Positions 1,641-20,817 of a stretch of DNA of 64,000 bases are shown here, one piece after another. Location of the stretch: NCBI GenBank assembly GCA_030747175.1, contig JASLLE010000005.1, positions 1 to 64,000 on the forward strand, in the 5' to 3' direction. Position 1 is the first letter of the stretch, and each line of letters begins with the position of its first letter. Origin of the DNA: Dehalococcoidia bacterium. GTDB taxonomy: Bacteria; Chloroflexota; Dehalococcoidia; Lucifugimonadales; Lucifugimonadaceae. The position numbers and the translations under genes were made by a program. A model generated the notes under the pieces. That model was given only the letters and a program-made list of their open reading frames with translations. It was not told the origin of the DNA and searched no databases.

Positions 1641-2498
1641 CTATAGCTCTACCGATCCGGGCCCGTTTCCGAAGGCGTAGTAGTCGTGTTCGACCCTGTC
1701 CGGGAGGACTTTGACGACCCTGTAGCCGGAGGGATCATCGCCCAGCGGGTAGCCGACCGCTCCCGTCGCAACGACCTGCATATCACCGTACGAGGAATAG
1801 TTGTTGCGATGCCAGTGCCCGGCGAACACGGCCTTCGCATCGGCATTTCTCAGAAGTCGCAGCAACACTTCACGGCGTTCGAGCGGCCAGTTCCAGTAAT
1901 CGGTCGGCTCGTCAGGCGTTTTCAGGAATGCCGGGTGGTGCGAGAAGACGATGATCGGGCCGCCTTGTGATACCGCCGCCGCCAGTTCAGTCTTTACGAA
2001 TTCAAGCTGCGCCTCCCACTCACCCGGCACCGGCGATGGGTTGTCGATCGTGATGCTGTCCAGCACCAGGAACGAAGCGCCGCTGTGCTGGAATGCGAAG
2101 TAATCGGGTCCGAACACTCCTCGGTAGGTCCGCAGGCTTTCCGGCGTGGCACTCACGGTATCGGCCCCGACATCGTGGTTACCGGGAACCCAGTGGATCG
2201 GTATTTCGGAATCAAGCCCGCCCGCTATGCGTAGCACCTCGGCCCGCTCGGTTTCCGAATCTGGGTCGTTCACCATGTCACCGCAGACGACCACAAACGC
2301 CGGCTTCAATCTGTTCGCTTCGGAAATCGCCTCCGTGAATAGCCGGCTCTCATCCTCGAACCCCTGTACGGGTGGCGCTTTCCGGACCTTACTGCCTTTG
2401 AACAGTTGTGCCTCGATCACCTCGTCCGTGACGCCGCCCCATCGGGCGAACATGCCGAATTGTGGGTCTGCGAGCTGGATGAAAAAGAATGGGTCCAT
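1641..2498 (-). CDS. CPPED1-like metallophosphoesterase (tandem copy 1 of 3)
   Basis: This 285-residue calcineurin-like phosphoesterase carries the full set of metal-ligand motifs: L-A-D-P-Q-F-G near residue 10, C-G-D-M-V-N-D, P-G-N-H-D-V-G, F-S-H-H-P-A-F and A-G-H-W-H-R-N. The L-A-D-P-Q start is typical of proteins similar to the eukaryotic phosphatase CPPED1. There is no signal peptide, so it is probably cytosolic. It is the last gene of a minus-strand run of aldolase and three paralogous phosphoesterases. GAGG lies about 9 nt before the ATG. The substrate (phosphoprotein or small phosphoester) is not predictable from sequence. Confidence 0.88.
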   Translation of the reverse strand: MDPFFFIQLADPQFGMFARWGGVTDEVIEAQLFKGSKVRKAPPVQGFEDESRLFTEAISEANRLKPAFVVVCGDMVNDPDSETERAEVLRIAGGLDSEIPIHWVPGNHDVGADTVSATPESLRTYRGVFGPDYFAFQHSGASFLVLDSITIDNPSPVPGEWEAQLEFVKTELAAAVSQGGPIIVFSHHPAFLKTPDEPTDYWNWPLERREVLLRLLRNADAKAVFAGHWHRNNYSSYGDMQVVATGAVGYPLGDDPSGYRVVKVLPDRVEHDYYAFGNGPGSVEL

Positions 2499-2565
2499 TT
2501 AAAGATCCTCGTCTAGCGGTGTACGGCGGTGACCTCGAGTGCAGCGGACACGTGGCCGAGGGTGT

Positions 2566-3450
2566 TCACGGCGTGTTTGTCGACGCGGGCATTTCGTCCA
2601 TCGCATACCAGTCGTGCTTCAGGCCGGATCCCTCCACCTGCACAACGCGGTAGCCCGAAGGGTCGTCCCCGAACGGGTAGCCGACGGAGCCGGAGGCGAT
2701 CATCTCCATGTCTCCACCAAACGCATAGTTGTTCCTGTGCCAGTGGCCAGCGAACACGGCATCGACACCGTACTCGCCAAGTAGTTCCAGGACGGGGCGG
2801 CGACGCTCGATTGGAATGGTCAAGTGCGCCTCTTCGGGCTTGTCTTCGTCCTGGTTTTCAAGGAAGAACGGGTGGTGTGTGAACAGGATGATGTGACTGC
2901 TCTGGCTTAAACGAGCGGCGCGTAGTTCGGCTTCAAGAAAAGCCATCTGGGTTTCCAGCTCGCCCGGCACTTCTTCCGGGTGTTGCGTGATGGCCGTATT
3001 GAGCACGATGAAGCTGGCATCGCCGTGCTGGAACGCGTAGTTGTCCGGCCCGAACCTGGAACGATATCGCGCAAGGCTTTCGTCGGTCGGAACCTCGTGC
3101 CGCGCATCGGCGCCGACATCGTGATTGCCGGGCACCCAGTGGAGGTCGATGCCGTCATCCAGAAGCGCGCCGATTCGCAGAGCCTCCTCGGCCTGGGCGT
3201 CGTCGTCCCACTGGTCGACGATGTCCCCGCACACGACAACGAAGTCCGGGCGGATAGCGTTCGCCGTGCTGATGGCCGCCGAAAACAGTCGGATTTCGTC
3301 CGCCAGTCCGGTGATTTTTGGAGCGGGTTGGGCGTTAAGGCCGCGCGCCCGAAACGCGGCGATCTGCTCCTCAGACAGTCCACTGAGACGGGCGAAAAGT
3401 CCAAATTGTGGGTCGGCGAGCTGGATGAACGACAGGGCGTCTTCAGCCAC
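2566..3450 (-). CDS. CPPED1-like metallophosphoesterase (tandem copy 2 of 3)
   Basis: This 294-residue paralogue of its two neighbours keeps all metal-binding motifs: L-A-D-P-Q-F-G, C-G-D-I-V-D, P-G-N-H-D-V-G, F-T-H-H-P-F-F and A-G-H-W-H-R-N. The start is a GTG whose reading frame overlaps the 3' end of copy 3 by 8 nt, which implies translational coupling. The three copies share the G-Y-P-motif region after the GHWH motif but differ in the loop after the histidine pair, where this copy has an acidic stretch. They look like old duplications rather than recent ones. Confidence 0.88.
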   Translation of the reverse strand: MAEDALSFIQLADPQFGLFARLSGLSEEQIAAFRARGLNAQPAPKITGLADEIRLFSAAISTANAIRPDFVVVCGDIVDQWDDDAQAEEALRIGALLDDGIDLHWVPGNHDVGADARHEVPTDESLARYRSRFGPDNYAFQHGDASFIVLNTAITQHPEEVPGELETQMAFLEAELRAARLSQSSHIILFTHHPFFLENQDEDKPEEAHLTIPIERRRPVLELLGEYGVDAVFAGHWHRNNYAFGGDMEMIASGSVGYPFGDDPSGYRVVQVEGSGLKHDWYAMDEMPASTNTP

Positions 3451-4372
3451 CCGGCGTGTCCATGAACGGTGCCTCGTACGTCAGCCGGGACCAACTGTGA
3501 TCGATGCTGTCAGGCGTCACGTGGACTTCCCGAAAGCCGGAGCCGTCAATGCTTACCGGGTAACCAACCGGTCCGGAGGTGACCATCTGCATCGGTCCAT
3601 CGCTGGCGTAGATGTTGCCGTGCAGGTGTCCTGCGAAAACGGCGTCGGCCCCGTACCGGCGAAGCAGGTCCAGGATTGGCCGGCGGCGTTCGATCGGGAC
3701 CGCTGTCCTGTTAAACAGCGGTGTGTCCTCTTCAGGGTCATGGACGAACAGCGGTATGTGAGTGAACAGAACGATGTGTGCGCTTCCACTGCGTCTCGCT
3801 TCTTCAAGCTCGTGTCCGAGGAACTCGAGCTGAGACTTCCACTCATCCGGCACCTCCTGTGGCGCCTGCATGATTGACGAGTTGAGGACGATGAAACTCG
3901 TATCGCCTTGCTGGAACGCGTAGTTGTCGGGTCCGAACCGGGTCCGGTAGCGCTCCAGCGTATCGGCGGTGGGTATGGTGTGGTTTTCGTCAGCCCCGAC
4001 ATCATGATTTCCGGCGACCCAATGCAGATCAATGCCGTCGTCCAGTAGCCGGCCGATCCGACGCGCCTCATCCGCCTGGGGATCGCTGTCCCAGTGGTAA
4101 ACGATGTCTCCGCACACGACCACAAAAGCGGGGCGTAACTGATTCGCCGTCTGGATGGCTTCAGTAAAAAGGTTGGTTTCCGGCGCAAACCCGGATATCG
4201 GGCGTACCGGCCTTACGCCGACCCTGTCAATTCCATGTATGTCTGCCATCATTTCTCTCATGGCGGCGAACCGTTCAGGGCTGCGTTCGCTGATCTCAGC
4301 AAACATGCCGAGCTGTGGATCGGCGAGTTGCATGAAGGTAATTTCGCCGGGTCCGGTCGTTTTCTCGGTCAT
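3443..4372 (-). CDS. CPPED1-like metallophosphoesterase (tandem copy 3 of 3)
   Basis: I chose the ATG at 4372 because it forms an ATGA overlap with the stop of the upstream aldolase and puts the L-A-D-P-Q-L-G motif close to the N-terminus, giving 309 residues. A longer in-frame start at 4444 would lie inside the aldolase gene. The metal ligands are present: C-G-D-I-V-Y-H, A-G-N-H-D-V-G, F-T-H-I-P-L-F and A-G-H-L-H-G-N. The second member of the usual H-H pair is Ile here, a small departure from copies 1 and 2. It is co-transcribed with the aldolase and the two other phosphoesterases. Confidence 0.87.
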   Translation of the reverse strand: MTEKTTGPGEITFMQLADPQLGMFAEISERSPERFAAMREMMADIHGIDRVGVRPVRPISGFAPETNLFTEAIQTANQLRPAFVVVCGDIVYHWDSDPQADEARRIGRLLDDGIDLHWVAGNHDVGADENHTIPTADTLERYRTRFGPDNYAFQQGDTSFIVLNSSIMQAPQEVPDEWKSQLEFLGHELEEARRSGSAHIVLFTHIPLFVHDPEEDTPLFNRTAVPIERRRPILDLLRRYGADAVFAGHLHGNIYASDGPMQMVTSGPVGYPVSIDGSGFREVHVTPDSIDHSWSRLTYEAPFMDTPGG

Positions 4373-5121
4373 GATCCGCTCATCTTTCCTAAGAACGCCG
4401 TTGCGCCCGCGGCAAGCCAGGGCTGCCAGGCGAGGCCGACGCACTTCACGCCCCGGGCGATGTAGCTCGCCACGGTGTCGTCGTTGACCAGCGTGCCGGC
4501 GGTTCGGCCGGAGTCGATTATGATGCCGAGGCCGTCTTCGACTGCTTGCAGTACTTCCGGGTGTGATATGTCGCCGGTGTGGCCCATGCTCTGTGCGAGG
4601 TCCCCGGGCGCTACGTAGAACACGTCGATCCCGTCAGCCTTGACGATCTCCTTCATGTTGCGGATGGCGATTATGTCCTCAAGAAGGATCGTGACGAGCG
4701 TGTTCTCGTTGGCCTTCCGGTGGTAATCGCTGATCCCGAGCGCCCGGCGTCCGCCGAAAGCGCCGCGATTACCCAGTGGCCCGTAATAGGACGACCGCGC
4801 CACGCTCTCCGCTTCTTCCCGCGTGTTCACGTGCGGCACCATGATCCCGTTTGCGCCGCGGTCCAGCGCGCGCGTGATGAGGGCCGGGTCGTTGCGGTGA
4901 ACGCGGACGACCGAGGCCATGTCCCACAGGTCACACGCGCGTGAGATATCGCCGATTACGTCCCATGAAATCGGCCCGTGCTCGCCTTCGGCGAGGATCG
5001 AGTCGAACCCCAGGTTGCCGAAGATCTCGGCTGTATCGCCGTCGTTCACGCCGTTGACGATAGATATGACGCCCCCGGCCTGAAGCTTCTGTTTAGCTTT
5101 GTTTATTCGGTACTCGGCCAA
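4369..5121 (-). CDS. HpcH/HpaI-type class II aldolase/citrate lyase-family protein
   Basis: This 250-residue cytosolic protein resembles 2-keto-3-deoxy-sugar-acid and 4-hydroxy-2-oxoheptanedioate aldolases, metal-dependent enzymes that split 2-oxoacid aldols to pyruvate and an aldehyde. Supporting segments are G-F-D-S-I-L-A-E-G-E-H-G near residue 45, the V-V-R-V-H-R-N-D strand, G-A-N-G-I-M-V-P-H-V-N-T and the V-A-P-G-D-L-A-Q-S-M-G motif. I chose the TTG start at 5121 because AGGAG sits 8 nt upstream; the frame runs open further upstream but codes nothing family-like. The gene heads the four-gene run with the three phosphoesterases through a 4-nt overlap. Confidence 0.85.
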   Translation of the reverse strand: MAEYRINKAKQKLQAGGVISIVNGVNDGDTAEIFGNLGFDSILAEGEHGPISWDVIGDISRACDLWDMASVVRVHRNDPALITRALDRGANGIMVPHVNTREEAESVARSSYYGPLGNRGAFGGRRALGISDYHRKANENTLVTILLEDIIAIRNMKEIVKADGIDVFYVAPGDLAQSMGHTGDISHPEVLQAVEDGLGIIIDSGRTAGTLVNDDTVASYIARGVKCVGLAWQPWLAAGATAFLGKMSGS

Positions 5122-11784: not shown

Positions 11785-14700
11785 TCAGGCGGACAGGCGG
11801 ATCTGACGTCCCTGCAGGCCGAGATCGACGACCCGTGGATCGGCCGAGATAGCGGCGTCCCGGGCGCGGTCCGCGGTGCCGGGGTGGTCGGCGAGCAGGA
11901 TGACCTGGGTATGTTGGGACAACTCTTCCGCAGCGGCAGCGAAGTGTCGTTCGTGTTCGGACCCGAGCATGTTTCCGAGGTCGTGGAGCAGGACAGGAAC
12001 CGGTTCCCCGTTCTCTGCTTGCTCGTGAGCGATCGCCAGTTTCGCGGACAGGAAAAGCTGGCGGAGCAGATCGCCTCCCAGTGTCTCTACCGCCTCGGCA
12101 TGTCCGTTCAAAGACACGACCTCGAACGCGTCGAACATGGCGTCGCCGGATGCTGTCGCCAATCGGATGTCCGTAAGAGTCCCGCCGCTGAGCCTTTTCA
12201 GATACTCACCGGTCAGGCGAAGCCGGTCCTGTTGGCCATTGGAGCCATACTCCGCGGTCGAGTCCGAGATCAGACGGCGGGCCGTGCTGAACTTCTTGAG
12301 CCGCCGGGACAGTTCGGCCAGTTGCTCATCCAGGCGAGACATCTCGACGCGGTGCTCGAGCGTGCGAGGCGGACCCTCGAGTTCTCCAAGGCGCTCATCC
12401 AGTTCCAGGGACCTGGATTCCAGACGGCCCTGGAGTTCTTCCAGGCGGGTGGCCCGTGTCGTCAGGACGTCTCGCTCTGCGGCGAGGGCCTCGGACCCGG
12501 CTTCCTGCAACTCCGCTTCGATCTCGCGACCCGATGGGCCGGTCAGATGACCGGAGTTTCGTCGGATTTCGTCCAGCTCGGTCGAAAGGCGTCTGCGCTC
12601 TTCCTCCCGGGCGGCGATCCCGCGGAACGAGACCTCGTCTTCAGCGCCGACAAGATCGAGCAGTTCCTTCCGTTCACGCGTTATGGTCTCCATCTCCCGT
12701 TCAGCCGTGGCGCGCCGTGTGGCCCAGGTTTCGCCATCCCGGCGCAGTTTGCCGATCTGGTCCTGAGTTCGGGTCGCTTGCTCGCGGTCCTCTTTCAGTT
12801 GGTCCAGTACCGGCGCCGCTTCGTGCGCCGCAAACTCCGGGAGATCAGCGGCCTCGGCCAGTTCGGATAGCCCGGCTTCCACCTGGACGATGACCACGCG
12901 CATGGACGGGACGCGCAGGTTTAGCTCTCCAACCCGGCTTCGGGTTTCCCGCATCTCGGCGACGAGATCGAGGGATTCACGCACGGCATTCAACCCGAGT
13001 TCTGGCTGAAGACCGAGGGACATAAGAATGTCTATCCAGTCATCCTCCATGGCCTGGAGTTGATTAGCCGCCTCTTGCGCCAGTTCGGTTTCGCCCTCGG
13101 CGGCCCAGGAAGCATTGTCGGCGGTATCGCCGGCGGTTTCGGCCGCCGCGGACGCCTCGTCGAAGAGCCGCTGCTGCTCGATGTCACGCGTCAACCGCTC
13201 GCGTTCGACGGCGAGATGTGCCATCGGGAGGTCGTATTCGAGTCCCAGTTCGTCGAGTGACGTGCGCAGGCTCTCCTCGACGTAGGCGAGGTGGGTTCTG
13301 GCTGTTTCGATGTCCTTTTCGAGCTCCTGTGCGGTCTGCGCCGCAAGCTCGTGCAGGACCGAGGACGCTTCGTACTGAGCCCGGGAGTGGCGCCGCTGGA
13401 CTTCCAGGATGGCGATCGACATCAGGACGCCGATCACTCCGGTCGCGCCGACGACTTCTCCGGTGCGCACCAGCGCGCTGTCGCCTGCCGATATCGCCAG
13501 GAACGTGAGGACGATGCCGACGACGGCGAATCCGCCGGACATGCCGAGCTGGACGAGTGGGATGAGGCGTCCGGCGCTTATGGCGCGACGGGGGCGGGCG
13601 TCGATGGTGTTGTCCAGGGCCTCGGCGAGTGTTTCGCGGGCGGTCACCAGTTCCGCCATCTCCCCTTCGGCCCGTGTGATTGTGTCCAGCCGCTCGTTTG
13701 CAGATTCGATCGTGATATCGGGCGCCGGACCAATGGCTTCCAGGTTCTTATTCGCTTTCGCCACCTGTTCCTGTGCCGATTCCAGGGTCTCGTCAGCCTT
13801 TGCCGACCTCATGGCCAGCTCTTCGCTGGAGGCCCGTTGCGTCACGATGTCCGCTTCGAGCTTTTCAAGTCGATCCCGGACGGCGGGTGAGTCTTCCACG
13901 GTATCCAACTTTGCCTCGTCCCAGCCGTGGCCCAACCTGGTGAGTCCCTCTTTGAGGTCTGTCTCAACCTGTTCCAGTTGTTGCGACAGGACGGGAAGTT
14001 CGCGGACCGCTTCGGCGTATTCATCGCTATGCGCCAGCAGCCGGCGGACTTCCTCCGCCGGGAAGTCGTCCGGGAGCGAGGCGGTCAGCTCCTCGACCTC
14101 GGCGGCGCGTGGGGAGTCCTCGGCATCCCCGCTGTCGATCTCTGCCTGTAGTTCACGCTCTCGGTCGCCGAGGGTCTCTAGAAGAAGCGATGGTCCCTGC
14201 GGGAGAAAGGCGAACTTCGGCATGTCCGACATGGAACTCTGGAGGTCATGCATCCGGTTCCATGCGGGACGGCTCTCCTCCAGGGCATCGATGCGGTGGA
14301 ACCGAGCACGCGCCACGGACAGCTCGTTATCCGCGTCCGTGATCTGTCTCTCCAGGTCCGCTCGTTGGCCGTGCAGGGTGGCGTAAGAGTCGAAATCCCC
14401 TGCGGCGAGGCGGAATCGTTCTTCAGCGACCTGCCGGGCGGTACGGGCGGCGGTGATGGCGCGCCTGATCTCTTCTTCCTCGGTATCGAAGAAGGTTGTT
14501 ATCGCCCTGATGTCCGCGCCATCGACCCCCCAGAGAAGGGAGAGCGTGAGCGTGAGAAGCGCGTCGGGATCTCCGTCAAGAACGCTGGACGATATGTCGA
14601 ACTTTTCCAGCCATGAGTGTTGGTCGATGGACGGCAGGCCGCACATGGACTCAGAATTGGGCCGGGATTCGCCCGCCCGGCTGACGCTCACCTGCCCCGC

Positions 14701-14976
14701 ACCCTCGCCCCGTCCTCGTAGATACCGTTCGATGGTTAGCGGTGAGCCGTCGGAGGCCACGACTTCGAGCAGACCGCCGCGCGGCGATGAAGGCGAGTTG
14801 AAGGGTGGAGCCGCGTCAATGTCGAACCCGAATAGCACCTGTCGTATGAAGTCACGAAAGGCCCGTAAATGCTCCTGATCGGGGCCGATGACTACGTTCA
14901 GGCCGGGAGACAGGCCAGTGATGTCACGCGACTGCAACGGGCCGAATGAATCCAGGAATACGCGGTCCAGTCTCAT
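11785..14976 (-). CDS. SbcC/YhaN-like coiled-coil ATPase homologue with degenerate ATP-binding motifs
   Basis: This 1063-residue protein shares the layout of the active paralogue at 16374-19556: N-terminal head lobe, long coiled coils, a central hydrophobic pair of segments (about residues 470-530) and a C-terminal head lobe. The catalytic motifs are lost. At residues 31-38 the Walker A reads G-P-D-Q-E-H-L-R where the paralogue has G-E-N-E-A-G-K-S. The signature L-S-R-G-A-A-E-Q-L is replaced by L-G-G-D-L-L-R-Q-L, and Walker B V-V-L-D-D-L-L-V by V-L-L-H-D-L-G-N. The frame is open throughout, which argues against simple decay. It overlaps the degenerate nuclease gene by 4 nt. Structural or regulatory partner is my inference. 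Confidence 0.85.
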   Translation of the reverse strand: MRLDRVFLDSFGPLQSRDITGLSPGLNVVIGPDQEHLRAFRDFIRQVLFGFDIDAAPPFNSPSSPRGGLLEVVASDGSPLTIERYLRGRGEGAGQVSVSRAGESRPNSESMCGLPSIDQHSWLEKFDISSSVLDGDPDALLTLTLSLLWGVDGADIRAITTFFDTEEEEIRRAITAARTARQVAEERFRLAAGDFDSYATLHGQRADLERQITDADNELSVARARFHRIDALEESRPAWNRMHDLQSSMSDMPKFAFLPQGPSLLLETLGDRERELQAEIDSGDAEDSPRAAEVEELTASLPDDFPAEEVRRLLAHSDEYAEAVRELPVLSQQLEQVETDLKEGLTRLGHGWDEAKLDTVEDSPAVRDRLEKLEADIVTQRASSEELAMRSAKADETLESAQEQVAKANKNLEAIGPAPDITIESANERLDTITRAEGEMAELVTARETLAEALDNTIDARPRRAISAGRLIPLVQLGMSGGFAVVGIVLTFLAISAGDSALVRTGEVVGATGVIGVLMSIAILEVQRRHSRAQYEASSVLHELAAQTAQELEKDIETARTHLAYVEESLRTSLDELGLEYDLPMAHLAVERERLTRDIEQQRLFDEASAAAETAGDTADNASWAAEGETELAQEAANQLQAMEDDWIDILMSLGLQPELGLNAVRESLDLVAEMRETRSRVGELNLRVPSMRVVIVQVEAGLSELAEAADLPEFAAHEAAPVLDQLKEDREQATRTQDQIGKLRRDGETWATRRATAEREMETITRERKELLDLVGAEDEVSFRGIAAREEERRRLSTELDEIRRNSGHLTGPSGREIEAELQEAGSEALAAERDVLTTRATRLEELQGRLESRSLELDERLGELEGPPRTLEHRVEMSRLDEQLAELSRRLKKFSTARRLISDSTAEYGSNGQQDRLRLTGEYLKRLSGGTLTDIRLATASGDAMFDAFEVVSLNGHAEAVETLGGDLLRQLFLSAKLAIAHEQAENGEPVPVLLHDLGNMLGSEHERHFAAAAEELSQHTQVILLADHPGTADRARDAAISADPRVVDLGLQGRQIRLSA

Positions 14977-16199
14977 GACAGGCCGTCTCCCGCCGGTGAG
15001 AGGCGCCGGACAGCCAGGCTGTACGCATCTCGCGTGATGCCCGAAGCGCTTCCCGGGTCTCCGTTGCCGTCGGCGTCGGTGTCATGTGTGTCCGGCGCCG
15101 CTTCGGTTAACTCGCCAATCGCGCCGTTATTAACGATGGATTCGTACCGGGAGTGAAGTGCGGTGAGCAGGGGTGGGGAGACTCGATCCGTGCCGTGGGA
15201 ATCCGCTGCCGAGTTTGTCAGGTCCTCCACCCTGTCGACCCAGACCCGGGGCCGCTCGAAAAGTACCGATTCGCGCAGGTCATCCAACAAGCCGTCATTG
15301 TTCCCGGGCAGGGCCTCGACATCGCCGTTGAGCATCAGGCGGCAGATCAGGTCTCGACCGTCCGACCGGGCCAGGGCGTCCATGACGGCCCCGCGGGCCG
15401 CGGGAGCGACTTCTTCCGGCGTTAGATCGGATATATCGAGCGACACGTTCTCCCAGCGAACGCTATCGAGCGCCACGAAGGCTGGCCTCGCGCGGCCCGC
15501 CTCGTCCGTCTCGATGATGTAGCAACCGAACGCCCCGGTTTCCGTTGGCGAGAGGGCCTGCGCCGGGCCTGCGCTCAGGATCCTCCTCGAAGGATCACTC
15601 AACTTCGTGCCTTCCCGTTCCGGGCCGAATGCCCAGTAGTGGAGTTCCGGGAGAGATTCAAGCGGGTCCGCCCCAGCGTCGTCCGCGGGCGCGAACTGGC
15701 TGACGAGTCCGATGGTGACGGACTCGCTGTCTGTAGCCGCCAGGAAATCGGACGCCGATGGGCCGGGCAATGCGCTGGATTGCTGGCTGGCGCCCTGCAG
15801 TAGGGCGATGGTCTCTCCGTCTTTAACGATCTGATACCAGCTCGGCCGGCCTCCCATGACGTGGACGCCCTCCGGCCATCGGATCGTCGGGAGCCATGCT
15901 GCGGCCGGGTCTTCCGGGCCGTGGACGAGGTAGACGGGCACGCCGGCGTCGGCGATGGCGGCAAGTCCGTCCCGGAAAGCGAGCTGGGAGCGGATGCTGC
16001 GATCCGCCAGGTTGAACACGCCGCCGGCGATCAGGAGGAAGTCTGGCGCTTCAGACTCACAGAGCGACTGCAGATTTCGAAACGCCTCGAACGGGGCGGC
16101 GCGGAGGCGTTCGTCGACGACCGCGCTCGGATTGCGTAGCCCGGAGTACGGGCTATCGAGCCGGAAGCCTGCCGCATGGATGAATCGGGTGCGCCGCAT
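14973..16199 (-). CDS. SbcD/YhaO-like nuclease homologue lacking every metal ligand (pseudo-nuclease)
   Basis: This 408-residue protein aligns almost without gaps over its first 100 residues with the active paralogue at 19558-20817, but all metallophosphoesterase ligands are changed. D11 becomes G, H13 becomes R, D60 becomes G, N95 becomes P, the catalytic H96 becomes E, H166 becomes S (residue 167 here), and the G-H-V-H motif becomes G-P-E-R. Fold-supporting residues between them are kept (H-A-A, L-D-S-P, A-D-R-S, F-R-D-G-L). CGGAG lies about 7 nt before the ATG. The C-terminus has an Asp/Gly-rich low-complexity stretch. It is coupled to the degenerate ATPase by an ATGA overlap, copying the usual nuclease-ATPase order. 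Confidence 0.85.
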   Translation of the reverse strand: MRRTRFIHAAGFRLDSPYSGLRNPSAVVDERLRAAPFEAFRNLQSLCESEAPDFLLIAGGVFNLADRSIRSQLAFRDGLAAIADAGVPVYLVHGPEDPAAAWLPTIRWPEGVHVMGGRPSWYQIVKDGETIALLQGASQQSSALPGPSASDFLAATDSESVTIGLVSQFAPADDAGADPLESLPELHYWAFGPEREGTKLSDPSRRILSAGPAQALSPTETGAFGCYIIETDEAGRARPAFVALDSVRWENVSLDISDLTPEEVAPAARGAVMDALARSDGRDLICRLMLNGDVEALPGNNDGLLDDLRESVLFERPRVWVDRVEDLTNSAADSHGTDRVSPPLLTALHSRYESIVNNGAIGELTEAAPDTHDTDADGNGDPGSASGITRDAYSLAVRRLSPAGDGLS

Positions 16200-16373
16200 C
16201 TATCTCCGGGAGCCGGCATGAGCCGCGTGATTACGAGCGATTCATAGCTGAACGCGTCGGACGCGAAATAGCGCCCGCGCTCAGGGTACGGACTGAACGT
16301 GTGTCCCGATAACGGGGAGGATACCGATGGCGCTGCGGGTTAACGCCCAGACTCATTTGCGTAGGAGGGCGGC

Positions 16374-19300
16374 TTAAAGCAGCGGCTGCATCCGGGGAGG
16401 GGGTGTTTCCGAGGGCTCGACAACCGTGGCCGCGGCAGGCGTCCCGGCGGCGGGGACGACGTCAGGTTCCTCGCGGCCGGAACGGATCTCGACATCACCC
16501 GCCTGGCTCAGCTCGATCAGTGACATAGCGGTACCCGGATTGTCACCGATCGCCTCTTGCAGCATCGTTACGGTCGATGGTTGACAGGTGAGGAAGATGA
16601 CCTGTTGCCGTTGGGCCAGAGCAGATATGGCGGAACACGCCGCACGAGCGCGTTGCGGGTCGAAATTAACGAGCAGATCGTCGAGCACTACCGGCAGCGG
16701 TGATTTCGCCGCGTACTCATCAACAAGCGCGAAACGTATGGATAGCCAGAGTTGCTCGGCGGCCCCGCGACTCAGGTGTTCTGGAGGTACGATCCGTCCG
16801 TCTGAAGAAATGGCCTCGAACCGTTCCTCGCCTATTACCGCCCTCACGCCGGAGTATCCACCCAGCGTCATCTTGCTGAAATAGCCGGATGCCGCATGCA
16901 ACAGGGACGGCTGTCGCTGTTCCTGGAACTCCTCCCGTGTCTGGTCCAGGAGTGATCTGGCGACCGTGAGCACGCTCCACTCCCGCGCCTCTTCACGGAG
17001 CTGCTCTGTCAGCTCGTCGATACGGGCGTGAAGGCGCGCAACCTCGGCCTCCGTCTCAAGTCGCTTCAGTGCGGCCCTGACTTCGCCGGCCTGGATCATG
17101 GCGGCGTCGCGCTTTTCGCCGGTTTGCGCGAGTTGCTCCTTCAGAGAGACGAGATCCGCCCGGAGCTGCTCAGGCTCTGAACGGTCCAGGGATTCGTGTA
17201 TCTCTATGGAACGACTCCCGAACAGGTCCGGAGCACTGGTTTTCAGGGCTTCGAGATCGGCATCGAGTCGCCACCTGATCTCAGCCTGCGCGGCGAGTTC
17301 TCGGAACTGTTCGTGGGATTCGCATCCCGCTCTATTCAACAGCTCTTCGATGTCCTTTTTAACGGAGCCAAGTGACTCCTGAAGGCCTATTCGTTCGTCA
17401 CCCCAATCGTCCGACTCTCGCTTCAGGATTTGCCGCCGACCGACCGCCTCTACGTGATCTTCCCAGCGGCGTTCAAGCTCACGGAGGGCCGATAAACCGG
17501 CTCCCGTTGCTGGCAGTTCCAGCCCTGCGTCGGTAAAGATAGAACCCAGCAGTTTGTCCGTGTCGGCGTTCTGAGCCTGCATCGCGGCCACGCGTTGTCG
17601 TTTTCCCGCCGCTTCCTGCGTGCGTGCTGCGAGGCCTCCGAGTTTGTTGATGGCTCCAAGAGCATCGTCACGATCAAAGTGAGCTTGCAGGTCGAGTTGT
17701 TTGAGCAGCCGGTCCCAGGCGTCGTCGGCTTCGGCCATCTCTCGTTCGGACAGTTTGAGTTTCTCGGTCAGCTGGATGCGTCGTGTTTCGACGTTTTCTG
17801 AACTCCGTCGTGCGTCGTTCACAGCGTCTGATAGTGCCGCGGCCTCGCGTTTCCGGTCGATCTCCCGGCCGACGGAGTTCCGGATTTCTACCACCGCCCG
17901 AGCCGATACAGGCATCTGGAGGTTCAGTTCGGTCGCGATGGATGTGATTTCATCCTGAACATCCCTCCGGGGCTGTGCCGGGTTTGCAACGGCCTGTGGC
18001 CTGTTGCGAGCCGTTACGAAAAGCGCGACGCCTGCCACGATCGCCACGATCCCGGCGATGGCGCTGGCGATTTCGCCGAAAATGACGGCGATGGCGATCC
18101 CCAGCAGTCCTGCGGCGGCCAGGAGGAACCCGGGCAGAGATCCGCCGAACAGTGACACGGACGCGTTAACGGTGACGGCATGAGACCGGTGCGTCTCTAA
18201 CTCCGCAAGAGCACCTTCGAGCGTCGCCAATCGGTCACGTTTGCGCTCTAGCGCTTCCATGGACTCGACGGGGGCTGGAGAGGCGTTAGTGAGTCGTTCC
18301 TCTTCCGCCCGCAGCCTGTCTTCGCTTTCTGCGGCGTCTTTGTCGGCGCCGTCCAGGTCCTCTCGGGCTCGGATCGCCCTCCTGCCGACTTCGGCGCGGG
18401 CGTCGGCGCCGGACTGGACAAATTCGATGGCCCGGGTTGAATCGCTGAAAGTGGAGATTCGTTCCGGCGTCCAGTTCGGCCCGATCGAAGCAGATTCGCG
18501 CAGCACACCGGCTTCGATCTCGGAGGCTTCTGCTTCACGTTTTGGAATGTCCTGCACCGCCTCCTGGTAGTAACCGATCTGCGACGTGGCTTCACGTACA
18601 TCGCTCTCTCGACTCATGAAGGTTTCCACGACCGGGAGACCGGCGTCGCGTCGCCCTCTCTCACGGTCACGCCTGTCGCCGTCCGCCAATCGGGACTCAA
18701 TGCCCTCGGCATGACGCAGATAACCGTCCAGCCGTTCGACCCCTTTCAGGGGTATGGCATTCGTCTCAGGCAACTCGGAGATCTCGCGCCGGAGCCGTTG
18801 AAGATTCAGCCACGGGTCTCGCAGTTCGAGAATTCGTTCTATCCGTGTCGCGCTGGTGCGTAGACCGGTCAGTTGCTCATCCAGTTCTTCTGCGGAATCC
18901 TCAAGGGACTGCAACTCGGCAGAGAGCCTGTCGTAGCCAGATAGCTCGATCCTGCGTTCGTTCAACTCCTCTCTTGTCTCGCGAAGAGATTTTTCCAGGT
19001 CATAAAGCGACCCTGACCGCACCCGCCGGTACTTCGAAATGCGGTCATCGAGGTTTCGCGTGACATCTCCCAGGCTGACGTTGCCCATGCCAAGTCCGGC
19101 TGAGTAGATCCGCTCGGTTATTTCGCCCCGGCCGAGTGCCTCGAACGACTGCAACTGCGTGAGGCTGATGCTGAATACGTTCTGGTAGAACGCGTCGTCT
19201 ACGCCCCCGACTAACTCCCGTAGCAGGTCATCCCCGCCGTCACGGGCGCCGGATATCGTCACCGGCCCACCGCGGACTCCTTCAACCCGGTTGATGGAGA

Positions 19301-19556
19301 AAGGATCACCGTTCGAATCGGCGATATGCACACTTCCGCCCGCCCCGCCCGGAAGCGCTGGCTCATAGAAATACTCAGCCCGTTCAACGGACCGGGCCCG
19401 CGGAAAGCCGAACAGGATTACCCGCATGAAGCCACGAAGAGCCGACTTTCCGGCCTCGTTCTCGCCATGCACGATCGTCAGACCGGATGAGAAGCCGTCC
19501 ACTTGCCGGCCGTTGAACGGCCCGAAGTTGTCCATGTCCAGCCGAGTGATGCGCAT
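16374..19556 (-). CDS. SbcC/YhaN-like AAA ATPase, coiled-coil, with central membrane-like segments
   Basis: This 1060-residue Rad50/SMC-like ATPase has an intact Walker A, G-E-N-E-A-G-K-S at residues 31-38, the signature L-S-R-G-A-A-E-Q-L-W-L and Walker B P-V-V-L-D-D-L-L-V-N-F-D near the C-terminus. Long coiled coils are interrupted at about residues 475-525 by two very hydrophobic stretches separated by a short turn, as in the YhaN branch rather than classical SbcC, so the protein may be membrane-tethered. It is expected to work with the nuclease encoded 1 nt upstream on DNA ends. The C-terminus ends in a Pro/Ala/Glu-rich tail. Confidence 0.9.
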   Translation of the reverse strand: MRITRLDMDNFGPFNGRQVDGFSSGLTIVHGENEAGKSALRGFMRVILFGFPRARSVERAEYFYEPALPGGAGGSVHIADSNGDPFSINRVEGVRGGPVTISGARDGGDDLLRELVGGVDDAFYQNVFSISLTQLQSFEALGRGEITERIYSAGLGMGNVSLGDVTRNLDDRISKYRRVRSGSLYDLEKSLRETREELNERRIELSGYDRLSAELQSLEDSAEELDEQLTGLRTSATRIERILELRDPWLNLQRLRREISELPETNAIPLKGVERLDGYLRHAEGIESRLADGDRRDRERGRRDAGLPVVETFMSRESDVREATSQIGYYQEAVQDIPKREAEASEIEAGVLRESASIGPNWTPERISTFSDSTRAIEFVQSGADARAEVGRRAIRAREDLDGADKDAAESEDRLRAEEERLTNASPAPVESMEALERKRDRLATLEGALAELETHRSHAVTVNASVSLFGGSLPGFLLAAAGLLGIAIAVIFGEIASAIAGIVAIVAGVALFVTARNRPQAVANPAQPRRDVQDEITSIATELNLQMPVSARAVVEIRNSVGREIDRKREAAALSDAVNDARRSSENVETRRIQLTEKLKLSEREMAEADDAWDRLLKQLDLQAHFDRDDALGAINKLGGLAARTQEAAGKRQRVAAMQAQNADTDKLLGSIFTDAGLELPATGAGLSALRELERRWEDHVEAVGRRQILKRESDDWGDERIGLQESLGSVKKDIEELLNRAGCESHEQFRELAAQAEIRWRLDADLEALKTSAPDLFGSRSIEIHESLDRSEPEQLRADLVSLKEQLAQTGEKRDAAMIQAGEVRAALKRLETEAEVARLHARIDELTEQLREEAREWSVLTVARSLLDQTREEFQEQRQPSLLHAASGYFSKMTLGGYSGVRAVIGEERFEAISSDGRIVPPEHLSRGAAEQLWLSIRFALVDEYAAKSPLPVVLDDLLVNFDPQRARAACSAISALAQRQQVIFLTCQPSTVTMLQEAIGDNPGTAMSLIELSQAGDVEIRSGREEPDVVPAAGTPAAATVVEPSETPPPRMQPLL

Positions 19557-19557
19557 A

Positions 19558-20817
19558 TCAGTCCTCGCGCTCGAACAACTCGGCCAGCTTCCAGCGAGCG
19601 GCTTCGATTATCTCCGTCAACTGATAATCGTCGGGCATTTCGAGGACGCCGGAGAATCTGCGCTGGCCCAGGACACCAGATAGCGAATCGCGTAGCGTGG
19701 CCGCAGAATCGGCCCGGTCCGGGGCGGCGATGCTCCGTTTCATGACCTCGCCGACGAAGTCATCACGCGCTGTGAGGGCATCAAGATCCAGTTGTGGTCC
19801 CGTCTGGTCAGAAATTCGCTCGACCCAGATAAAGGGAGTGGAGGATGAGTAGCCGGCGCGAAGCTCGCCGGCGAGGTCTTCCAACGCGTTCTCTATCGCC
19901 AGGTCGTGGTGCAGAGTGCCTCGCCCGGTGAACGAGATTCGGCACACCAGGTCCCGGCCGTCGGCCCGTATGCGTTCGGCCTCGATTGCGGCATGCGTTG
20001 CTTCGAGCAAGGCGTCCAGGTCTGAGAGATCGTCGATCGCAACCGACAGGAACTCCCAGCGCACGACGTCTAGCGGCGCAAACCGGGATGAGACGCGCCC
20101 GGCTTCGTCGACATCGACGACCAGCGCACCTCTGGGGCCTGATTCGTTCGGATGTCGGCCCTGCAGGTTGCCCGGGTAGGCGATTACCGGGTCCGCCTGC
20201 CGCATTGCCTGGCGGGTGTGGACATGACCGAGCGCCCAGTAGTCGATCCCTGTTGCGGTCAGATCATCGACCGTGCAGGGTGCGTAATTGTCATGTTCAA
20301 CTATGCCGCCCACGTTGCAGTGGAGGAGACCGATCGAGAATAGATTCTGCGATGGTGGAGTGAAGCGTAGGGCGAGGTTGTCGTGAACCTCGCGGGTCGG
20401 GTAACTGACACCCTGGATCTGTGCGACCGCGGTGCCATCCACTTTCGCCATCGCCCACGCCGGATCCGGTCCGAAGACATGGGCAGAATCAGGCATGGGA
20501 ATACGTGAAAGCCTGCCGTCCAGCGGATCGTGGTTGCCGTGAACGACGAAGGCACCGATCCCGTGCTCCTGAAGGCGCTTTAGCCCGTCCCGGAAGCGCA
20601 TCTGGGCCTGCACGCTGCGGTCAGCTCCGTCGTAAACATCCCCTGCGATGACCACGAAAGCAGCGTCCTGCGAGATACAGAGGTCTATCAGCCCGGTGTA
20701 GGCCTCATATGTGGCGTCTTTCAATCGCTGTGCGATCCGCGGCTCGTACTTGAGCAGACCCTTGAACGGGCTGTCGATGTGCAGGTCTGCTGCGTGCACG
20801 AATCTGAACGGCTGCAT
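19558..20817 (-). CDS. SbcD/YhaO-like DNA repair exonuclease
   Basis: This 419-residue metallophosphoesterase of the Mre11/SbcD type has the complete two-metal site: D11 and H13 in A-A-D-L-H, D60 in A-G-D-V-Y-D, N95 and H96 in G-N-H-D, H166 in L-L-H-C, H198 and H200 in G-H-V-H. It is expected to be a Mn-dependent nuclease processing DNA ends with the ATPase encoded directly downstream. The A-A-D-L-H-I-D-S-P-F-K-G-L start is typical of YhaO. TACAAT lies 7 nt before the ATG with no Shine-Dalgarno, suggesting a leaderless mRNA. It heads the four-gene run, in which the second pair is a degenerate copy. Confidence 0.92.
   Translation of the reverse strand: MQPFRFVHAADLHIDSPFKGLLKYEPRIAQRLKDATYEAYTGLIDLCISQDAAFVVIAGDVYDGADRSVQAQMRFRDGLKRLQEHGIGAFVVHGNHDPLDGRLSRIPMPDSAHVFGPDPAWAMAKVDGTAVAQIQGVSYPTREVHDNLALRFTPPSQNLFSIGLLHCNVGGIVEHDNYAPCTVDDLTATGIDYWALGHVHTRQAMRQADPVIAYPGNLQGRHPNESGPRGALVVDVDEAGRVSSRFAPLDVVRWEFLSVAIDDLSDLDALLEATHAAIEAERIRADGRDLVCRISFTGRGTLHHDLAIENALEDLAGELRAGYSSSTPFIWVERISDQTGPQLDLDALTARDDFVGEVMKRSIAAPDRADSAATLRDSLSGVLGQRRFSGVLEMPDDYQLTEIIEAARWKLAELFERED

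Follow-up and report, generated by a model that had tools for sequence, protein, structure and literature searches.

The closest described counterparts of the genes considered here are SbcEF, the same system as YhaO-YhaN, and SbcCD/Mre11-Rad50, in which the apex of Rad50 is a zinc hook and the C-terminus of Mre11 is the usual site of its grip on the ATPase. SbcEF has been implicated in double-strand break repair, in a role called poorly characterised (PMC6452273), and is classed as SMC-like (PMC12748557). Pseudonuclease partners have been described for Integrator and CPSF, where INTS9 and CPSF100 are catalytically dead paralogues kept beside an active nuclease (PMC7980224). A search of open-access papers for dead Mre11/Rad50 paralogues returned nothing relevant and, provisionally, the retention of a whole Mre11-Rad50-like pair in a dead state beside an active one has no described case in that literature.

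We found such a locus in the window, a 64,000-nucleotide stretch of a Dehalococcoidia genome (G000, a 3.19-Mb assembly of 154 contigs). On the minus strand, from 20817 to 11785, an active nuclease and an active ATPase are followed by a dead nuclease and a dead ATPase (Table 1). The active pair belongs to the SbcEF/YhaO-YhaN type, an Mre11-type nuclease with an AAA_27 Rad50-like ATPase that carries membrane-helix-like segments at its coiled-coil apex. A sequence-only reading of the window had reported a second pair beside an intact one in the same gene order, and its coordinates, lengths (408 and 1063 codons) and open frames are all exact. It had also ascribed a 4-nt coupling to both pairs, which is wrong for the active one: the active genes are 1 nt apart (position 19557), a 4-nt overlap exists only between the dead genes, and the two pairs lie 174 nt apart. 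Rfam, promoter and terminator searches of this intergenic stretch (16200-16373) returned no match to a regulatory RNA, promoter or terminator. A partly conserved core of the stretch, GCGTTAACCCG..CGGTATCC.CCCCGTTATC, is common to the relatives G005, G001, G004 and G007 and also to G003, which has no dead pair. Elsewhere in the window, three adjoining metallophosphoesterase-like paralogues with a QLADPQ-type start in common occupy 1641-4444 of the minus strand (1641-2498, 2566-3450 and 3443-4444), and G002 and G004 have at least two of them in the corresponding neighbourhood. A further SbcD-like match, under the family cut-off, lies at C11:23850-24086 (L205) of the window genome.

Table 1. Positions in the window of the four genes, the sites of the lost motifs and the neighbouring features.
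Feature	Position	Strand	Remarks
Dead nuclease homologue, Mre11/SbcD/YhaO-type fold without metal ligands	14973..16199	-	408 aa
Dead ATPase homologue, Rad50/SMC/YhaN-type	11785..14976	-	1063 aa; 4-nt overlap with dead nuclease
Active ATPase, AAA_27/YhaN type	16374..19556	-	1060 aa; Walker A, signature and Walker B intact
Active nuclease, Metallophos/SbcD-YhaO type	19558..20817	-	419 aa; full octad
GGAG, Shine-Dalgarno-like, ahead of dead-nuclease ATG	16204..16207	-	
Intergenic stretch between active ATPase and dead nuclease, 174 nt	16200..16373	-	Core partly conserved in relatives
Lost nuclease motif I, D11-x-H13 to G11-x-R13	16161..16169	-	G11 in 4/4 orthologues
Lost nuclease motif II ligand, D60 to G60	16020..16022	-	G in 4/4 orthologues and in the G007 relict
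Lost nuclease motif III, N95-H96 to P95-E96	15912..15917	-	From alignment
Lost Walker A, GENEAGKS to GPDQEHLR	14863..14886	-	K then S/T in 0/4 orthologues
Apex hairpin, two membrane-helix-like segments, residues 471-526	13399..13566	-	Most conserved region of dead ATPase
Lost ABC signature, LSRGAAEQ to LGGDLLRQ	12058..12081	-	From alignment
Lost Walker B, VVLDD to VLLHD	11980..11994	-	From alignment

We conclude from BLASTP alignments that the two pairs are diverged paralogues with homology far beyond chance, the dead and active nucleases sharing 33% identity over 396 columns (1e-53) and the ATPases 24% over 1079 columns (2e-45). Pfam recognises the active nuclease as Metallophos and the active ATPase as AAA_27. 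It assigns the dead ATPase to no family, and its match to the dead nuclease falls under the cut-off. In the aligned columns the active octad DHDNHHHH reads GRGPE-PR in the dead nuclease. All eight ligands (D11, H13, D60, N95, H96, H166, H198 and H200) had been called replaced, and this stood for every position but H166, which faces an alignment gap and not S. In the dead ATPase the aligned Walker A and ABC signature are replaced (Table 1) and the Walker B/D-loop VVLDDLLVNFD reads VLLHDLGNMLG. The earlier statement that all three ATPase motifs are broken needs one amendment, as the second acidic residue of Walker B (D999) survives, together with the H of the switch motif. The dead pair has the common descent and predicted fold of the active complex and lacks its octad, Walker A, signature and Walker B. 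The octad is intact in all 53 other aligned nucleases that have every column (P0004 included), a set biased by scan patterns that held catalytic motifs, and in 16 of 16 order-level nucleases that cover all columns and were found without such bias.

Both the four-gene order and the ligand losses recur in three congeners. Orthologues of the dead pair are complete on one contig in G005, and lie on contigs C74 and C188 in G004 and on C133 and C200 in G001. All four species, that of the window included, have G at nuclease positions 11 and 60, and the signature of the four dead ATPases reads LGGDLLRQ, LGGDIIRQ, LGRDLLRQ or LGSDLLRQ. In each of these genomes the dead pair lies directly downstream of an active pair on the same contig, and the order active nuclease, active ATPase, dead nuclease, dead ATPase is kept in G005 and G004, and also in G001, where an inserted element interrupts it. 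Within a class sample of 393 genomes, two nuclease matches were found only in G000 and G005.

Family genomes of several genera share a block that runs GroEL, nuclease, ATPase, slot and ParB neighbourhood, and the slot is usually without anything dead. A second genus (g4, the genus of the window being g1) has in this slot, after an active pair, a 1380-1480-aa ATPase homologue whose arm contains a large acidic insert (L053:9779-13984, L082:5388-9830, L089:7469-11608). Its Walker A, signature and, where covered, Walker B are all gone, and it has no dead nuclease beside it. Fusion of a dead nuclease into this long protein was rejected, the extra length being the acidic arm insert with no nuclease sequence match. 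A dead-ATPase profile run over 250 genomes of the order scored the dead genes of g1 and g4 far above all others. Motif inspection of 20 order-level loci gave no further dead copies, and 80 contig loci held at most one pair each in a scan biased towards catalytic motifs.

In both trees the g1 dead sequences form a single clade that lies outside the active family members from their own genus, and recent duplication inside the window genome was rejected, the dead clade not being nested in the active clade of its genus. When either dead group (g1 or g4) was removed, the other still fell outside the actives. The shared slot and closer BLAST scores support one origin for the dead ATPases of g1 and g4 but do not prove it, since the tree joins two long branches here. 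An old duplication before the g1/g4 split is the simplest reading of these sequences, with which independent origins would also be compatible. In G004 the active pair beside the dead pair is of g4 type, with 46% and 32.5% identity to the active pair of the window, and the dead pair is 63-67% identical to that of the window. This genome has two alternative active nucleases after GroEL (L072/L074; C74, C221), a g4-type one beside the dead pair and a g1-type one on another contig. Its overlapping contig ends differ slightly, and a strain mixture or an allele swap is possible.

Pairwise codon models (dS <15) gave omega values far below 1 (dead ATPase 0.02-0.13, dead nuclease 0.04-0.19), and omega = 1 was rejected in every comparison (LRT 71-796). 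dS was saturated for most pairs, and estimates in which it ran away were set aside. G004-G001, the least saturated pair, gave 0.13 for the ATPase and 0.19 for the nuclease. In g4, a less saturated pair of dead ATPases (dS 0.71) had an omega of 0.26 versus 0.14 for its active ATPase. Between G000 and G005, dN was lower in the dead than in the active ATPase (0.20 against 0.32) and higher in the dead than in the active nuclease (0.30 against 0.11). All four dead ATPases are exactly 1063 aa long with zero gap columns, whereas aligning the active ATPases of G000, G005 and G001 opens 17 such columns. In these last three genomes the invariant fraction of the dead ATPase is 0.46/0.51 in the heads, 0.46/0.55 in the arms and 0.70 in the apex, and that of the active ATPase is 0.72/0.80, 0.38/0.37 and 0.24, respectively. 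We conclude from the aligned sequences that constraint on the dead ATPase has moved from the heads to the coiled-coil arms and apex. The catalytic residues are lost, the loss is inherited and selection is purifying, as in a pseudoenzyme. With inherited dead motifs, omega far below 1 and a recurring four-gene order, the proposal that this is a retained non-catalytic pair and not the outcome of random decay is upheld.

The dead pair has been lost in several lineages. All that is left in G007 is the beginning of the dead nuclease, with a frameshift, after which ~4 kb are deleted; the pair is absent from its near twin G002 and from G003 and G006. The G001 dead nuclease is interrupted near residue 229, where the ends of contigs C133 and C200 carry inverted, 75%-similar sequence flanked by repeated ATCTAGT (L071 1-99, L034 1-70). 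One of these ends occurs at six places in G001, this break included and mostly at contig ends, which is the pattern expected of an inserted mobile element, and the interruption is probably one. In G020, of g4, the dead ATPase is cut down to ~209 residues. From the relict, absences, insertion and truncation we conclude that the dead pair, although selected for a long time, is accessory and dispensable. The sequence-only reading had named dN/dS near 1, absence from all close relatives and frameshifted copies as signs of decay; a frameshifted copy was found (G007) and three congeners lack the pair, but omega is far from 1. The relict and absences show dispensability, not decay of the window copy.

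An AlphaFold model of the dead nuclease (56 sequences; mean pLDDT 84.5, best over residues 1-333) had its closest matches in SbcD of E. coli and Mre11 of M. jannaschii, with Z 22.8 and an rmsd of 4.2-4.4 A across 284-294 residues. After residue 334 pLDDT was mostly <60 and, since this C-terminus is poorly predicted, its contact with the dead ATPase is one that we infer. The model of the dead ATPase (40 sequences; pLDDT 79.7) retains a head in two parts, long arms and helices at the apex, and its matches are SMC/Rad50 proteins, the arm arrangement being unreliable at a pTM of 0.43. The predicted folds are still Mre11-like and SMC/Rad50-like, in part imposed by alignments made up mostly of active homologues. 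The dead ATPase has coiled-coil arms and a membrane-like apex segment, as judged by hydropathy and by predicted helices at 475-496 and 507-576, and of the 63 family ATPases that reach 800 aa, 60 have a membrane-like segment in mid-protein. PADLOC gave a partial LmuB match confined to residues 168-527 of the dead ATPase, in the coiled-coil arm, and no defence-family match for the nucleases.

The dead pair resembles SbcEF (YhaO-YhaN) of AAA_27 type in nuclease-ATPase order, size, fold and mid-protein membrane-like segment, and differs in lacking catalytic motifs and in carrying its constraint in the arms and apex instead of the heads. With SbcCD/Mre11-Rad50 it shares the predicted nuclease core and capping domain and a Rad50/SMC-like head with coiled coils; however, metal ligands, P-loop and signature are gone and a membrane-like apex segment takes the place of the zinc hook. 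INTS9 and CPSF100 are likewise catalytically dead copies kept beside an active nuclease, but they are eukaryotic, have a metallo-beta-lactamase fold and heterodimerise with the active copy, whereas here a nuclease and its ATPase are both dead and a heteromer with the active pair is hypothetical.

Arm length, apex and nuclease core are what selection has kept, which favours a scaffold or tether. We put at roughly 45% the reading that dead nuclease and dead ATPase form a catalytically dead pseudo-Mre11/Rad50 complex, probably membrane-anchored, that serves as a constitutive tether or scaffold. An SbcEF (YhaO-YhaN)-type operon would have been duplicated, and the downstream copy would have lost both catalytic activities before the g1 species diverged and then been retained as a pair of pseudoenzymes that are probably co-expressed with the active genes. 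The dead nuclease would sit on the base of the dead ATPase, with the apex hairpin in the membrane, and the complex would work constitutively, needing no ATP switch, as a tether or scaffold linked to the membrane that holds DNA or partner proteins, DNA binding being presumed. The steps from conserved arms to a membrane tether are ones we infer. We regard as doubtful the version in which the arms and membrane apex of the whole complex are the selected part and make it an ATP-independent, membrane-anchored tether that descends from a machine for processing DNA ends and is kept beside the active one.

Second in rank, and unlikely, is that the dead pair is a regulatory partner of the active one, which caps or inhibits it in mixed nuclease dimers or ATPase heads as INTS9 or CPSF100 might suggest. 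In its favour, such pseudonuclease partners are known from other systems (PMC7980224), the modelled dead nuclease retains an Mre11 core fold, and the dead genes adjoin the active pair downstream in four g1 genomes and, for the ATPase, in g4. With Walker A and signature both lost, however, a mixed head dimer would be left with two broken composite ATP sites, making an ATP-driven mixed complex unlikely. The mixed head dimers that had been suggested earlier are further disfavoured by the constraint lying in arms and apex: in genomes with the dead pair the active apex is unconserved and the dead apex conserved. Additionally, the dead pair of G004 is conserved beside an active pair of another lineage, in an assembly that seems strain-mixed, and g4 has no dead nuclease at all.

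Rather improbable, and third, is neofunctionalisation away from DNA ends, for example as a membrane structural or binding protein, which would leave the adjacency as a relic of duplication. The shift of constraint to apex and arms fits this, as does the acidic insert gained by a g4 dead ATPase that has no dead nuclease beside it; against it, intact copies stay 4-nt-coupled and adjoin the active pair, and the nuclease fold is kept though catalysis is impossible. Slow decay of pseudogenes whose frames are open by chance, to which the losses in G007, G002, G003, G006, G001 and G020 could be credited, is very improbable and for the window copy largely refuted by omega far below 1, by the absence of any indel across 1063 codons in four species and by a dN lower in the dead than in the active ATPase of the same species pair.

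If a whole dead pair is indeed retained beside the active one, the locus would be a natural separation-of-function experiment on the use that a cell has for coiled-coil arms, apex and Mre11 fold when neither cutting nor hydrolysis takes place. The shift of constraint from head to arm makes this idea testable.
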